In this document: positions 3,016 to 20,772 of the stretch, one piece after another
How the letters are laid out: the number at the start of each line of letters is the position of its first letter
How positions within the stretch are numbered: position 1 is the first letter of the stretch
Virus record (IMG/VR): IMGVR_UViG_3300006028_000019
Coordinates: 1 to 38,740 of that record
Source of the DNA: a virus
Length of the DNA: 38,740 nt
Direction: 5' to 3' (one strand)
Program-made: the position numbers and the translations under genes
Notes under the pieces: model-generated
Databases searched by the model: none
What the model saw: only the letters and a program-made list of their open reading frames with translations
Told to the model about the DNA's origin: nothing

Positions 3016-3518
3016 GCGATCCAATGAATCCGGCCGAGAATCAGCAGCGCCTCGCGGCCGTCGCTGAAGCGCGTACCTGGCTGCGCACGCAGTATCACCA
3101 CATGGGGCGCATCAAGGGCGTGGGCTGCGACTGCTACACGCTCTTGCTCGAGGTGTTCAGCAAGATCGGTCTGTTCACGGCGCAGGCTGAGGAAAGTTTT
3201 TATCCGCGAGACTGGTTTCTGCACGCCAGCAACGACCATTACAAATTCCGCATCCTGCGCCATGCCGGCGAAATGGTTGAGAACTTCTGTTCTTCGACCG
3301 AGATGACCACCGCGGGAAACATTGTGCTGGTGCGGGTCGCCGGCAAGCGCGGTTCGCTCGATATGCACGGCGGCATCATCAGCGCCTGGCCCAGAGTGGT
3401 CCACGCGTACCCGCCCTGCGTGATGGAGGCTGATGCGCGCTATCACCCAGCCTTCGCCGCCGGCCGGCTCGAGTTCTTCTCGCCCTGGGCAAAAAAGGAG
3501 CAACCGACAAATGTTTAA
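3012..3518 (+). CDS. NlpC/P60-family tail peptidase (GTA gp14-like)
   Basis: This 168-residue protein carries the NlpC/P60 catalytic pattern: Cys41 within 'GCDCYTLL' and His119 within 'DMHGG'. Members of this family in this position are tail-tip cell-wall hydrolases, thought to cut peptide cross-links in peptidoglycan as DNA enters. The start ATG overlaps the DUF2163 stop (ATGA), which indicates translational coupling. The third catalytic residue was not assigned. The length and position between gp13-like and gp15-like genes agree with the GTA-type tail-tip order. Confidence 0.82.
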   Translation: MSDPMNPAENQQRLAAVAEARTWLRTQYHHMGRIKGVGCDCYTLLLEVFSKIGLFTAQAEESFYPRDWFLHASNDHYKFRILRHAGEMVENFCSSTEMTTAGNIVLVRVAGKRGSLDMHGGIISAWPRVVHAYPPCVMEADARYHPAFAAGRLEFFSPWAKKEQPTNV

Positions 3519-12705: not shown

Positions 12706-12744
12706 CTTCTAGATGTAGGTTGCAGGATGAGAGGAAGGAATCTA

Positions 12745-12942
12745 ATGAATTCAGGACTTGCAGCGTTTTCTATCGTTGCCGCGTTCGCTGCGGGCGTCGC
12801 GGTGCACAAGTACGTCATCAGCGAAGCCGAGAGAATCAAATCACACGTCACGAACGCCGTGATGAGTGGCGTGCTCTCCAGCGAGACGCGGATCCGCGCC
12901 GACGTTGCCGCCGTGCTCAACAGACTCGCGAGCAAGGTCTAG
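12745..12942 (+). CDS. Small single-pass membrane protein
   Basis: A 65-residue protein. ATG 12745 is preferred over ATG 12727 because GAGGAAGG lies just upstream of it. Residues about 5-22 are hydrophobic (LAAFSIVAAFAAGVAVH) and the rest is an amphipathic helix with Glu/Arg. It follows the holin and could be a lysis accessory, but no family was recognised. Its TAG stop (12940-12942) lies inside the left copy of a 17-bp repeat. Confidence 0.55.
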   Translation: MNSGLAAFSIVAAFAAGVAVHKYVISEAERIKSHVTNAVMSGVLSSETRIRADVAAVLNRLASKV

Positions 12943-12954
12943 CCTGTACAGGCT
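12938..12954. repeat. 17-bp boundary repeat with 14-bp palindrome, left copy
   Basis: TCTAGCCTGTACAGGCT. The last 14 bases form a perfect palindrome (AGCCTGTACAGGCT). The repeat provides the stop codon of the + strand gene (TAG at 12940-12942) and overlaps the stop codon of the minus-strand gene (TAG on the minus strand at 12955-12953). An identical copy lies at 13361-13377. Confidence 0.85.
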
Positions 12955-13360
12955 AACTCGCCAGTTTGGTGTCGTCGCTGTAGGGCGCTCGCAAACTCTG
13001 TGTGGTCAGCGTTTCGTCTGGTTTTGAGCCGGGCATGAGGCGTGGGCGCGCTGGTGGATTGTGTTTCTGCTCGTGAGCGACCGCGGTGAGCTGCGGAGTT
13101 TTTTCGGATAATTCCACGCAGCCCTCATAAACATCTTCGTTGAAGGCTCCGCTTTGGGGGGCCGGGCCAAAGGCGATGGAGATGCTACACGGCATACAGA
13201 GCACCCGGCGGCGCGCACTGGCGCGGGTCATCGGTCGAACTCCGGTGGTTCGCAGCACGGTGTAGGCGATCGTGGCAGGTTCGCCAGTCTCGTTGATATT
13301 TTCGGCGGTTTTGAGGGCGCGGCCACAGCGCACACAGGGTTCGATCTTCATGATTTGCAT
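12953..13360 (-). CDS. Zinc-ribbon protein on the opposite strand, in a repeat-bounded cassette
   Basis: A 135-residue protein read leftward, with two Cys pairs (C9-x2-C12 in 'CVRCGRALK' and C56-x2-C59 in 'CMPCSISIAFG') that would bind one zinc. The C-terminal third is polar and Pro-rich. It is the longest gene here that runs against the rest of the genome. It is exactly bounded by two identical copies of a 17-bp palindromic repeat: one overlaps its stop codon, and the other lies immediately before its start codon, across the expected ribosome-binding region. This suggests self-regulation or a cassette-type insertion. Its function is unknown; DNA binding would be a guess. Confidence 0.65.
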   Translation of the reverse strand: MQIMKIEPCVRCGRALKTAENINETGEPATIAYTVLRTTGVRPMTRASARRRVLCMPCSISIAFGPAPQSGAFNEDVYEGCVELSEKTPQLTAVAHEQKHNPPARPRLMPGSKPDETLTTQSLRAPYSDDTKLAS

Positions 13361-13377
13361 TCTAGCCTGTACAGGCT
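13361..13377. repeat. 17-bp boundary repeat with 14-bp palindrome, right copy
   Basis: TCTAGCCTGTACAGGCT again, identical to 12938-12954 and in the same orientation, directly before the start codon of the minus-strand gene. As a palindrome it could be an operator. As a direct repeat it could be the footprint of cassette insertion. Confidence 0.85.
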
Positions 13378-13395
13378 GAGTGGGGAACCTTCTCA

Positions 13396-13422
13396 GTCAA
13401 CGCTGTCAATACCGTCAACACC
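13396..13422. repeat. Three 9-bp repeats in intergenic DNA
   Basis: GTCAACGCT, GTCAATACC and GTCAACACC follow each other with a 9-bp period. On the minus strand they read as three TTGAC elements, each resembling a -35 box, upstream of the minus-strand gene. They could be binding sites of a regulator or the remains of promoter duplication. The rest of 13378-13524 shows nothing else clear. Confidence 0.5.
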
Positions 13423-13770: not shown

Positions 13771-13789
13771 TCAGAGGGGCATTCTGCTG

Positions 13790-13811
13790 TTTCAATTCAC
13801 CTGAATTGAAA
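13790..13811. promoter_or_regulatory. Perfect inverted repeat, possible operator
   Basis: Arms TTTCAATTCA (13790-13799) and TGAATTGAAA (13802-13811) are perfect reverse complements around CC. The right arm contains TTGAAA, which could be a -35 element, with a weak -10 (GAAATT at 13829). A dimeric repressor site controlling the recombinase operon is likely. It is not followed by a T-run on either strand, so a terminator is less likely. Confidence 0.5.
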
Positions 13812-13856
13812 AAGGGTATTTTTGTCGGGAAATTGTACTGATGAGTAAACAGGGAA

Positions 13857-14228
13857 ATGAAGAAAACGGAAAAGTGGAAGCCCGAGATCGAACGTGCCTG
13901 GGTCACCTGGGCGACTATCGGCTTCGCGCACACAATCTATGTTCTGTACGTTCCTAACCATCAATCACCCGTCGGCATTGTGTGGGGGTGGGGTCGCGGC
14001 GACCGTTTTGAAACCGCCGGCTCTTTTGTTCCGGTCTGGGCCAGGCGGTTTGGCGTCAGATCCAAAATTAACGAGACAATTTTCCAGCACTTCAAGTCGA
14101 TCAGCACCCTCCATGGTTCGAAAGAGGGGGGAGCAGCCTTTCTCAAGGCTCGGGGCTACAAGAGGAACGAGGATCTAGACCTGTTCTATCTGCGGCGTCC
14201 CAGGAGAAAACGAGTGCGCCGCGCATGA
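13857..14228 (+). CDS. Phage protein coupled to the recombinase, unknown function
   Basis: A 123-residue protein. Its start has a close AGGGA. It has an aromatic-rich first half ('RAWVTWATIGFAHTIYVLY', 'GIVWGWGRGDRF') and a very basic C-terminus (RRPRRKRVRRA). No family was recognised. It overlaps the serine recombinase gene by four bases (ATGA), so the two are probably co-translated. An accessory role in recombination is possible but is inferred only from position. Confidence 0.6.
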   Translation: MKKTEKWKPEIERAWVTWATIGFAHTIYVLYVPNHQSPVGIVWGWGRGDRFETAGSFVPVWARRFGVRSKINETIFQHFKSISTLHGSKEGGAAFLKARGYKRNEDLDLFYLRRPRRKRVRRA

Positions 14229-14821
14229 ACCAGGTCGCACTCTATGCGCGCGTCTCGAAGGATATCTGCCGCACCTGTGGCAGGGCCGAGGCAACGCACG
14301 ACGAAACCACGGGCCACGAGTTCAAAGGTCAGGATCCCGAGGCGCAGCTCCAACCGCTGCGCGAGATGTGCCGTATGCGCGGATGGACGATCGTGCGGGA
14401 ATATGTCGACCAGGGCTGGAGCGGCGCCTCGGAGTCGCGACCGGCCTTCGACGAGCTGATGGCGGCGATCGAGTCGACGGATCTCAAGAAACCTGAGACG
14501 CGGAAATTTGACGGTGTCGTCGTTTGGAAGTTTGACCGGTTCTTTCGATCGACGAAGCACATGCTGCGCGTGCTCGATATGCTCGAGGCCAGGCGCCTCG
14601 AGTTCGTTTCACTGACGGAGTCGATCGACACGTCGTCGCCGATCGGCCGGCTCCTGTTCACCATCCTGGCAGCCATCGCGGAATTTGAGCGCAACCTGAT
14701 CGCCGAGCGGATCCGCAACGGCATGAAGAAACTGGGCGCGAAAAAACCGGGACCAAAGATCGGAGAGCGCGGTCCGTCGCGCTCAACCCTGTGGCGCCTC
14801 TCTAAACGCGCCCGCACCTAG
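14225..14821 (+). CDS. Serine recombinase (resolvase/invertase type) with zinc-like insertion
   Basis: A 198-residue protein with the resolvase N-terminal pattern: Tyr7-Ala-Arg9-Val-Ser11 (catalytic serine), 'QDPEAQLQPLREMC', 'VVWKFDRFFRS' and 'AAIAEFERNLIAERI'. It cuts and rejoins DNA and is the most likely factor for lysogeny or gene inversion. Two features are odd. An insertion of about 20 residues follows Ser11 and holds Cys15-x2-Cys18, His25 and His31, a likely zinc site next to the active centre. The C-terminus is short: after 'RNGMKKLG' only the last helix of the usual helix-turn-helix remains (SRSTLWRLSKR). It is not a large serine integrase, so its partner site and direction are unclear. 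Confidence 0.82.
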   Translation: MNQVALYARVSKDICRTCGRAEATHDETTGHEFKGQDPEAQLQPLREMCRMRGWTIVREYVDQGWSGASESRPAFDELMAAIESTDLKKPETRKFDGVVVWKFDRFFRSTKHMLRVLDMLEARRLEFVSLTESIDTSSPIGRLLFTILAAIAEFERNLIAERIRNGMKKLGAKKPGPKIGERGPSRSTLWRLSKRART

Positions 14822-16224: not shown

Positions 16225-16715
16225 GAACCTTCCGCCAATTCGTCGCCTCCCAGATGGTCCGCGTCCACAAAATATCGCCCGAGCTGGCCGCCTACCACGT
16301 CTCCCAGATGGACGAAGCCGAATTGCAGTTTCGCGTCCGCATGTACGCGGGAATGGAGTTGAGTGTCGCCGGTCCAAATCCCAGAGCGGTCCCCGAGTCT
16401 TCCACCAGGTTTTCTCGCCCGCAACGACGACGGCAGACTGACGGCACTCAACCCTCTTCCCGCGAAGGGGACGAAAAAGATTGGGAGCAATGGCCGGAGG
16501 ATGAAGAGTGCGATTGCTTCCGCTGTAGACGGGACGGGAAAGGGAAATTCCGCCCCGTCATGCCAGAGTCGGAGAAAGAAAACCTGGTCCGTTCGCCGGG
16601 GCGTTTTTTGCCCCGGCTTGTGCTGCCTGAGTCGGAAGGAGAAAACCTGGGAAAGCCGGGAGCGAAAAATGCGCTTTCGGCGGAGAGGACTCTAGGTTTT
16701 GATTTCTTTACTTGA
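16221..16715 (+). CDS. Phage protein with repetitive C-terminus, upstream of the replication initiator
   Basis: A 164-residue protein coupled to the previous gene. The N-terminal part is helical ('TFRQFVASQMVRVHKISPELAAYHVSQMDEAELQFRVR', mentioned in part). A short Cys cluster (CDCFRC) may bind metal. The C-terminal third repeats 'PESEKENL' and 'PESEGENL' and seems shaped by the DNA, which holds direct repeats and a strong hairpin. This part may be coding DNA that doubles as a replication origin. Its function is unknown. Confidence 0.55.
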   Translation: MRTFRQFVASQMVRVHKISPELAAYHVSQMDEAELQFRVRMYAGMELSVAGPNPRAVPESSTRFSRPQRRRQTDGTQPSSREGDEKDWEQWPEDEECDCFRCRRDGKGKFRPVMPESEKENLVRSPGRFLPRLVLPESEGENLGKPGAKNALSAERTLGFDFFT

Positions 16716-16717
16716 TA
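16561..16717 (+). other. Candidate rolling-circle replication origin
   Basis: Three signals come together just before and at the start of the rep gene. Two 27-bp direct repeats (16561-16587 and 16624-16650, 23 of 27 identical) flank a perfect hairpin (GCCGGGGC at 16595-16602, seven-base loop, GCCCCGGC at 16610-16617). Then TTTCTTTACTTGATA (16703-16717) resembles the pC194-family nick region, whose remembered core is TCTTATCTTGATA, with 11 of 13 positions in common. Nicking in that family falls within CTTG-ATA. The match is from memory and short, so this remains a candidate. Confidence 0.45.
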
Positions 16718-16720
16718 CCA

Positions 16721-17815
16721 GTGAATAACTCGACAGATCGCTCGACAGCTCGCAGCCAAGTGTTTTCTTCCGAAGGGTTTGCCTCGGATCCCCGGCAAGA
16801 GTTTCTGGGGAAAGAGTTCCGCCTTTTGGATCGTTATGAACTTCAGGAGTTGCTGGTGGAGACGTTGGCCCAAACCGACAATCACCGGAGGAAGGCGGCG
16901 GCCGTGATGGACTGCCACCGGACCTTTCGCCACTGGCGTTGCCGGGAGGGGCACGACTGGGCCGAGGCCGAGAATTCCTGCTCGGTCCGGGTTTGTCCGC
17001 ACTGTTGCTGCCGGAGGGCGGCGGTTCTGGCGGCTCGGGTGGATTGCTTTTTGCTCGATCGGGACACATCCACCATGCGCTACATCGTGCTCTCGGAGCG
17101 CAGCCAGGTGAACCTGGCCAAGGGGATGAAGTTGCTGTGGGAATCCTGGACGCGGCTGCGCCGAAGCGTGCGCTGGAAGCGGAAAGTGAAGGGCTGCATG
17201 GTGGCGCTCGAAGTGACTTACAACCCGCAGGATTATACCTGGCACCCGCATCTGAACGTGCTCTTTGAGGGTGAGTACTTTCCCGTCGAAGAATTGCATC
17301 AGCTCTGGATCGAAGCGACCGAGCATCGCGGGGAAATTGTGTGGATCAACGCTGTCGATCAGGGCACGACGCGGGAGTTGGTGAAGTATGTGACGAAACT
17401 TTCGGATTTGATCGGCGACCCGGTGGCGCTCGACAAATTCTTGACCGCGGTTCACAAAAAACGCTTCGTGCGCACCTACGGAAGCTTCTACGGTTTATCG
17501 TTTGCGGATGAAGAGAACCCAGCCGGAAAGCCTTGCCCCGACTGCGATTGCAAAGACATCGTGATGTTGGGCCGGGTGCGGCCGCAGCAGGTGAGCATCG
17601 ACTTTAAGGGCGTAATGCGGGTGGAGCGCGAGTCGCGAGACGTAGACGAAGATTTCGAGGAAGCGCAGTCCTTTCGCCCTGGATTGTTTTTGCGGCACAA
17701 GTACGCGCCGCGTCCCGGTCACGAGAGAACGCCGAAGTGGGCGGAGCGCCTTGATCATAGCGTGCGAGAATTTTCTCGACGCAAGTACATGAGTTTGCGG
17801 CAACCAGCCGCATAA
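16721..17815 (+). CDS. Rolling-circle replication initiator (HUH endonuclease)
   Basis: A 364-residue protein. An N-terminal metal-binding block has Cys/His residues ('CHRTFRHWRC', 'CSVRVCPHCCCRR'). Motif 1-like 'MRYIVLSER' is followed by the HUH motif 'WHPHLNVLF' (His175, His177) and the catalytic 'KYVTK' (Tyr223, Lys226), in the order and spacing of Rep_1-type plasmid initiators. Such proteins nick one strand at the origin and stay bound to the 5' end. Starts are non-ATG: GTG 16721 is used and TTG 16712 is possible. A likely single-strand-binding gene follows. This plasmid-type initiator is unusual in a tailed phage with a lambda-type head. Confidence 0.85.
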   Translation: MNNSTDRSTARSQVFSSEGFASDPRQEFLGKEFRLLDRYELQELLVETLAQTDNHRRKAAAVMDCHRTFRHWRCREGHDWAEAENSCSVRVCPHCCCRRAAVLAARVDCFLLDRDTSTMRYIVLSERSQVNLAKGMKLLWESWTRLRRSVRWKRKVKGCMVALEVTYNPQDYTWHPHLNVLFEGEYFPVEELHQLWIEATEHRGEIVWINAVDQGTTRELVKYVTKLSDLIGDPVALDKFLTAVHKKRFVRTYGSFYGLSFADEENPAGKPCPDCDCKDIVMLGRVRPQQVSIDFKGVMRVERESRDVDEDFEEAQSFRPGLFLRHKYAPRPGHERTPKWAERLDHSVREFSRRKYMSLRQPAA

Positions 17816-20430: not shown

Positions 20431-20772
20431 ATGATGAATCCGCAACCTACTCATTTTATAGACGACGCCCAAACTCGATTTCCTGAGTGCGCAAATGCGC
20501 CGCTCCTCAGCAATCTGCAGAGTGAACCCACCACCTCATGCCGCTGGCAAACGCGATTCGCGCGCCTGGTGCGGCGATATGGCGTCGCAAAACTGGCGCG
20601 CGACCTTGAGGTAGATCCGACAGCGATCTATCAATGGGTGCGAGGATCAGTCAGCCCGCGTCCGGACAAAGCCATGCTCATCGTCGTTCTGCTGCAGCCA
20701 GTGGGCCGCTTGAGACTCGAAGATATTTACAAGCACCGGCTTACAGTCCAGGCGAATGCCAGGTTGTCGTGA
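20431..20772 (+). CDS. Helix-turn-helix DNA-binding protein
   Basis: A 113-residue protein. The second half reads 'RYGVAKLARDLEVDPTAIYQWVRG', a Cro/CI-type helix-turn-helix, then 'LEDIYKHRL'. It has no peptidase or dimerisation domain like that of full CI repressors. ATG 20431 and 20434 are both possible, with GAGGA just upstream. It follows a 140-bp gap and precedes the packaging genes, so it may control the late operon, or be the Cro-like or repressor-type factor. Confidence 0.65.
   Translation: MMNPQPTHFIDDAQTRFPECANAPLLSNLQSEPTTSCRWQTRFARLVRRYGVAKLARDLEVDPTAIYQWVRGSVSPRPDKAMLIVVLLQPVGRLRLEDIYKHRLTVQANARLS

Follow-up and report, generated by a model that had tools for sequence, protein, structure and literature searches.

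A single minus-strand gene and its flanking palindromes

The window, that is, the whole stretch of 38,740 nucleotides of viral DNA analyzed here, contains a single minus-strand gene, which we refer to as ZR. It is placed between the lysis genes (DUF5675, holin and a 71-aa gene) and the early genes, and this position of the locus is conserved across relatives. The features assigned to the locus are as follows:

12940..12955, no strand: 3' palindrome, TAGCCTGTACAGGCTA, a predicted second operator with the same core as the 5' copy
12953..13351, minus strand: ZR gene, starting MKIEP, 132 aa (conserved start, 34-row alignment, dN/dS and structural model)
13359..13364, minus strand: putative -10 box TAGAAT, 7 nt before the ATG (proposed from sequence)
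13364..13377, no strand: 5' palindrome, AGCCTGTACAGGCT, predicted operator in ZR's own promoter, kept in 4/4 clade-1 loci
13384..13400, minus strand: upstream motif TTGACTGAGAAGGTTCC, of the kind TTKACT-N6-RTTCC by inspection, found 5' of most ZR genes

A longer ZR frame (12953-13360) uses an alternative ATG at 13358-13360 and encodes 135 aa. The preliminary description of this DNA had reported a palindromic 17-mer, TCTAGCCTGTACAGGCT, at both ends of the gene, and we confirmed both copies, at 12938-12954 and 13361-13377. Allowing up to three mismatches, there was no third match in the 38.7-kb window, while 100 dinucleotide shuffles gave a mean of 0.04 chance matches. The symmetric repeat is real, but the perfect palindrome proper is 14 bp long, and the left copy is symmetric over 16 bp (TAGCC..GGCTA). 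As had been described, the left copy supplies the TAG of both the upstream plus-strand gene (12727-12942) and the minus-strand gene; the right copy, said to sit on the start region of the latter, lies directly 5' of the start codon and not within the gene. Stops for two convergent genes are what bidirectional terminators, or stop-codon spacers between such genes, would provide. We find it scarcely credible that the palindromes have this role, because no T-run follows them, a terminator scan does not pick them, and a terminator would have no need for an identical sequence 5' of the gene or for a core that varies by clade (see below).

The zinc-ribbon label previously given to the product is fair: both CxxC motifs are retained without exception in 34 homologues, with all four Cys invariant in the 34-row alignment, and dN/dS is 0.08-0.16 among close members. 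AlphaFold run on the family alignment gave a model with a mean pLDDT of 82 (94-96 over most of residues 31-90), in which strands bear the CxxC motifs at 6/9 and 52/55 with helices after them, and residue 41 falls in the loop that joins strands 26-31 and 47-52; a single-sequence prediction for a clade-3 member was poor (pLDDT 55). Pfam assigned no family to ZR. The CxxC-containing segment of DUF6011 (PF19474) resembles ZR residues 5-19, but this match spans 15 residues only and falls under the curated cut-off (15.5 bits vs 26.6, E 0.013). None of the 34 members matched a helix-turn-helix (HTH) family in Pfam, the window ZR had no PHROG family (best 0.05, single members among the 34), and Foldseek returned no match at E 0.001 or better. 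The best VIA Z was 3.2 over ~60 residues, to solved zinc-ribbon folds (ribosomal S26e-like), and the fold searches found no recognized DNA-binding fold. A literature search found no description of such a family, which does not prove that none exists.

Elsewhere in the window, a serine recombinase gene (14225-14821) begins ~0.85 kb to the right of ZR, in agreement with the preliminary description. By eye, a conserved inverted repeat, TTTCAATTCACCTGAATTGAAA then TACTNNNNAGTNAACAGG, is located 5' of the recombinase region in the window (13784-13865), L018 and L077. Positions 16712-17815 encode a Rep_1 rolling-circle-type replication protein (PF01446, E 6e-17), and a weak Cro/HTH-like protein at 20431-20772, below Pfam cut-offs, is the other regulator candidate in the phage.

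Palindromes and promoters at related loci

Extending the family via the nearby recombinase, and then via the ZR clades, we found 34 further ZR homologues, nearly all on phage records. One clade-3 homologue comes from a phage-sized contig in a Betaproteobacteria MAG, and the other 398 genomes sampled from that order lack it; the annotated phage and plasmid collections held no ZR homologue, and the genome contigs searched held none of clade 1. When viral contigs were scanned for the pattern, L018 and L067 were the only two-copy loci, in both cases around ZR at 84-86% identity, and L077 has a ZR homologue (62%) with the 5' copy only. Exact palindrome matches occur in 77 viral stretches; only 3 of these have a ZR gene, and most of the matches are due to chance. 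A second minus-strand gene (MHYADGTPAKVGDL...) is located downstream of ZR on the same strand in L093 and L181/L199.

A perfect palindrome of at least 12 bp lies within 75 nt upstream of the gene in 29 of the 34 loci scored (0.59 expected by shuffling), and nine loci have a 3'-end palindrome (0.49 expected). The core varies by ZR clade, being TGTACA, GCTAGC, GGTACC, GTTAAC, AGTACT or CTTAAG, and all nine two-copy loci (clades 1 and 2) carry the identical clade-specific core at both ends. Clade 1 (window, L018, L067 and L077) has AGCCTGTACAGGCT; clade 2a (L093, L094/L172, L166, L167, L168 and L171) has AGCCGCTAGCGGCT at both ends, with the outermost base missing in two; L169 and L170 have the GGTACC core. 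Clade 3 has no 3' copy and instead carries two GTTTGTTAACAAAC-like sites before the ribosome-binding site, spaced 20-23 bp (mostly 22). The AGTACT core occurs in L185 and L186, the CTTAAG core in L190, and short tandem sites in L191 and L192. There are two exceptions: L098 has a different palindrome, and L090 has a ZR gene with no recognizable copy. Outside the ZR locus the sites are rare; they are nearly confined to it, at about two per genome. The 5' and 3' copies are spaced by 422-423, 414, 399 and 436 bp, and this range (399 to 436) does not favor a helically phased loop between them.

Two other arrangements were observed. L195, the record of L170, has an exact extra AGCCGGTACCGGCT at the stop of the gene preceding a phage integrase-like ORF (coordinates 1435-1448, 3407-3420), giving the order palindrome, integrase, ZR, palindrome, with a degenerate copy at the ZR stop. 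Meanwhile, a 102-bp exact direct repeat with GTTTGTTAACAAAC lies near both ends of one 39.3-kb phage record (L197 1-102, L198 1917-2018), possibly representing att sites or an assembly overlap, and a similar stretch with the same GTTTGTTAACAAAC site is present in L196.

The -10-like box TAGAAT, or TAAAAT, is kept at the same place in L018, L067, L077, L093 and L094. The TAGAAT box is also where the 5' site stops in the window and its nearest relatives, and it stands 7 nt before the ATG with no Shine-Dalgarno sequence. We therefore predict that these genes have their operator within the promoter and are transcribed without a leader. The arrangement differs in L166, L171 and several clade-3 members, where the sites cover the leader start and have a TGSTAGAGT-like box upstream of them. 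Both placements, within the promoter and at the leader start, would suit repression. A consensus scan of the window region returned no sigma-70 promoter, and the ZR promoters are therefore putative assignments. The motif TTKACT-N6-RTTCC(C)GAGGTAAC recurs 5' of most ZR loci with a TGSTAGAGT-like box downstream, and the two together are perhaps a promoter class of these phages.

The leader position of the clade-3 sites also bears on control at the RNA level, in which the palindromes would be mRNA hairpins that work by themselves or through bound ZR. Folding into a 5-bp stem closed by a 4-nt loop is possible for each palindrome, and one of the two clade-3 sites is often asymmetric at loop position -2/+2. 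However, in 29 loci the self-complementarity of the best site is complete and includes the four central bases, where a hairpin has no use for it, and the 5' site of the window is upstream of the predicted -10 and so would probably not be transcribed. We consider RNA-level control unlikely.

Co-inheritance and covariation of ZR with its palindromes

The palindrome type follows the ZR tree and not the tree of the nearby recombinase. On the ZR tree the type requires 9 changes, close to the minimum of 8, compared with a shuffled mean of 19.8 (0/200 shuffles as low). For the 14 phages that have both genes, it requires 5 changes on the ZR tree, which is the minimum, versus 10 on the recombinase tree, which is the random level, and a near-identical recombinase is found alongside every palindrome type. 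L018 and L093 provide a direct comparison: their recombinase genes share 94% DNA identity, and the 25 bp flanking the 5' palindrome on its outer side are nearly the same, but their ZR alleles differ (63% DNA identity) and each has its own palindromes. The pair is a natural swap, in which the gene and its predicted operators appear to have been exchanged together between phages.

Joint exchange is the part of the cassette idea that survives. The preliminary description had proposed a cassette with boundary repeats, perhaps linked to the recombinase. If the cassette were mobile, the gene would move by recombination or transposition at the palindromes, through the action of the serine recombinase or some other enzyme. 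Besides the allele swap, the opposite direction of ZR relative to its neighbors, its identical ends, one inverted case (L094) and the extra exact copy before the integrase in L170, which is left unexplained, are in line with such movement. Yet homologues occur with the 5' copy only, with two 5' copies or with none, the 3' copy being missing in L077 and all of clade 3. An empty site with one copy had been anticipated, but the two loci that lack ZR, L096 and L089, keep no copy. Furthermore, in L094, where the gene is inverted, the promoter sequence beyond the right palindrome has remained attached to it, the palindrome type is independent of the recombinase, ZR remains at one conserved locus, and ZR itself has no recombinase motif. 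The cassette reading is thus mostly unsupported, and we regard palindromes that serve as ends of a mobile gene as very unlikely.

Linkage alone could carry a palindrome along with the ZR gene, but it leaves unexplained both the matched cores at the two ends and a match between one ZR residue and one operator base. For the latter, we compared every alignment column with each half-site base over 33 loci. For base -3, residue 41 (window numbering) was the best of 120 columns, with a symmetric uncertainty of 0.914 and a runner-up at 0.64; the pattern was first spotted by eye, and the later scan weighed all columns equally. Arg pairs with G in 25/25 loci, Gln with A in 3/3, Met or Leu with T in 4/4, and Met with C in 1/1. 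Arg-guanine and Gln-adenine are classical contacts. On a tree built without that column, residue 41 changed independently four times, with 4/4 changes agreeing, a number of independent pairs on which a sign test cannot reach 0.05. Residue 41 also stands alone among 124 columns in being invariant across the 25 G-type proteins and altered at each of the four events. A search for new ZR members, as a held-out test of the residue-base rule, found none. The outer bases -6 and -5 vary with an N-terminal GRPR motif that resembles an AT-hook by inspection; this association mostly reflects the difference between clades.

These correspondences also bear on whether the palindromes are operators of another phage or host regulator and follow ZR by linkage only. 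Direct binding by ZR is our reading of sequence patterns, and the phage encodes the weak Cro/HTH-like protein mentioned above; on the other side, phages with near-identical backbones carry different cores according to their ZR clade, and one ZR residue tracks one operator base family-wide. A separate regulator appears highly improbable. Because the palindrome changes in step with one ZR amino acid in related phages, ZR very probably binds the palindromes at the ends of its gene to control that gene.

Proposed self-control and comparison with known systems

The alternative put forward in the preliminary description, a pair of operators for self-control, is well supported by the clade-specific covariation, the promoter position and the residue-base correspondence. 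We consider it likely that ZR is an autoregulatory, probably autorepressing, DNA-binding protein that reads these operators. The small, zinc-binding, sequence-specific protein would act on its own gene: probably as a dimer, it would bind the 14-bp palindrome, which overlaps the ZR promoter and is positioned between putative -35 and -10 elements in the window and at the leader start in other members, with residue 41 probably contacting base -3 in each half-site. Binding there would limit, rather than activate, transcription of the gene. The other copy, found at the gene's 3' end in clades 1 and 2 and ~22 bp (two helical turns) from the first in clade 3, would complete the control; the 3' copy may be a roadblock to convergent transcription or an auxiliary operator. 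The gene and its palindromes are inherited and exchanged as a matched unit. This co-inheritance, the covariation and the sequence patterns are direct observations; physical binding, repression, dimerization and the role of the 3' copy are predictions from them.

On this evidence, ZR is a new, unannotated family of predicted autoregulators whose specificity is legible from sequence covariation. A broader proposal seems to us evenly balanced between right and wrong: that ZR is a family of phage repressors built on a zinc-ribbon scaffold for which this way of reading DNA was not previously known, that its simple one-residue code at base -3 (Arg-G, Gln-A, Met/Leu-T or C) has shifted in nature on at least four occasions, and that matched protein-operator alleles are exchanged so that orthogonal specificity types occupy one locus. 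The natural covariation between ZR and its operator is clear enough to indicate one contact residue from sequence alone; therefore, the evolution of repressor specificity, namely how a protein and its operator change together without losing control, becomes directly testable by single-residue swaps. The family could also provide a set of small orthogonal repressors.

Phage immunity repressors of the lambda CI/Cro type have dyad operators at their own promoters and form type-specific protein-operator pairs. Unlike them, ZR has no HTH and its sites are nearly confined to its own gene; with about two sites per genome, it looks like a self-regulator and not a genome-wide repressor. The MqsA antitoxin has a zinc-binding domain, autoregulates via a promoter palindrome, uses a C-terminal HTH to bind DNA and has a toxin as its partner. 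A zinc-binding domain and autoregulation through a promoter palindrome, the latter predicted for ZR, are common to both. In contrast to MqsA (reviewed in PMC4803016), ZR has no adjacent toxin partner in the window, and Foldseek listed the N-terminal domain of MqsA for ZR only at E 4.6.

The Aca autorepressors, such as Aca2 and Aca10, are small, phage-borne proteins that repress their own unit via promoter inverted repeats, and those treated in the reports cited here carry an HTH and act on acr operons (PMC8434428, PMC9410881, PMC9410906). Compared with the Aca families covered there, ZR likewise has palindromes at the promoter, in 29/34 loci, and would likewise repress itself; it differs in having CxxC motifs, no HTH match and usually a single gene. 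ZR lacks the HTH of the closest described autorepressors but would otherwise work like those known to act on promoter palindromes. Self-repression by a small phage protein is already known, and what is new here is an unannotated family with no recognizable HTH.
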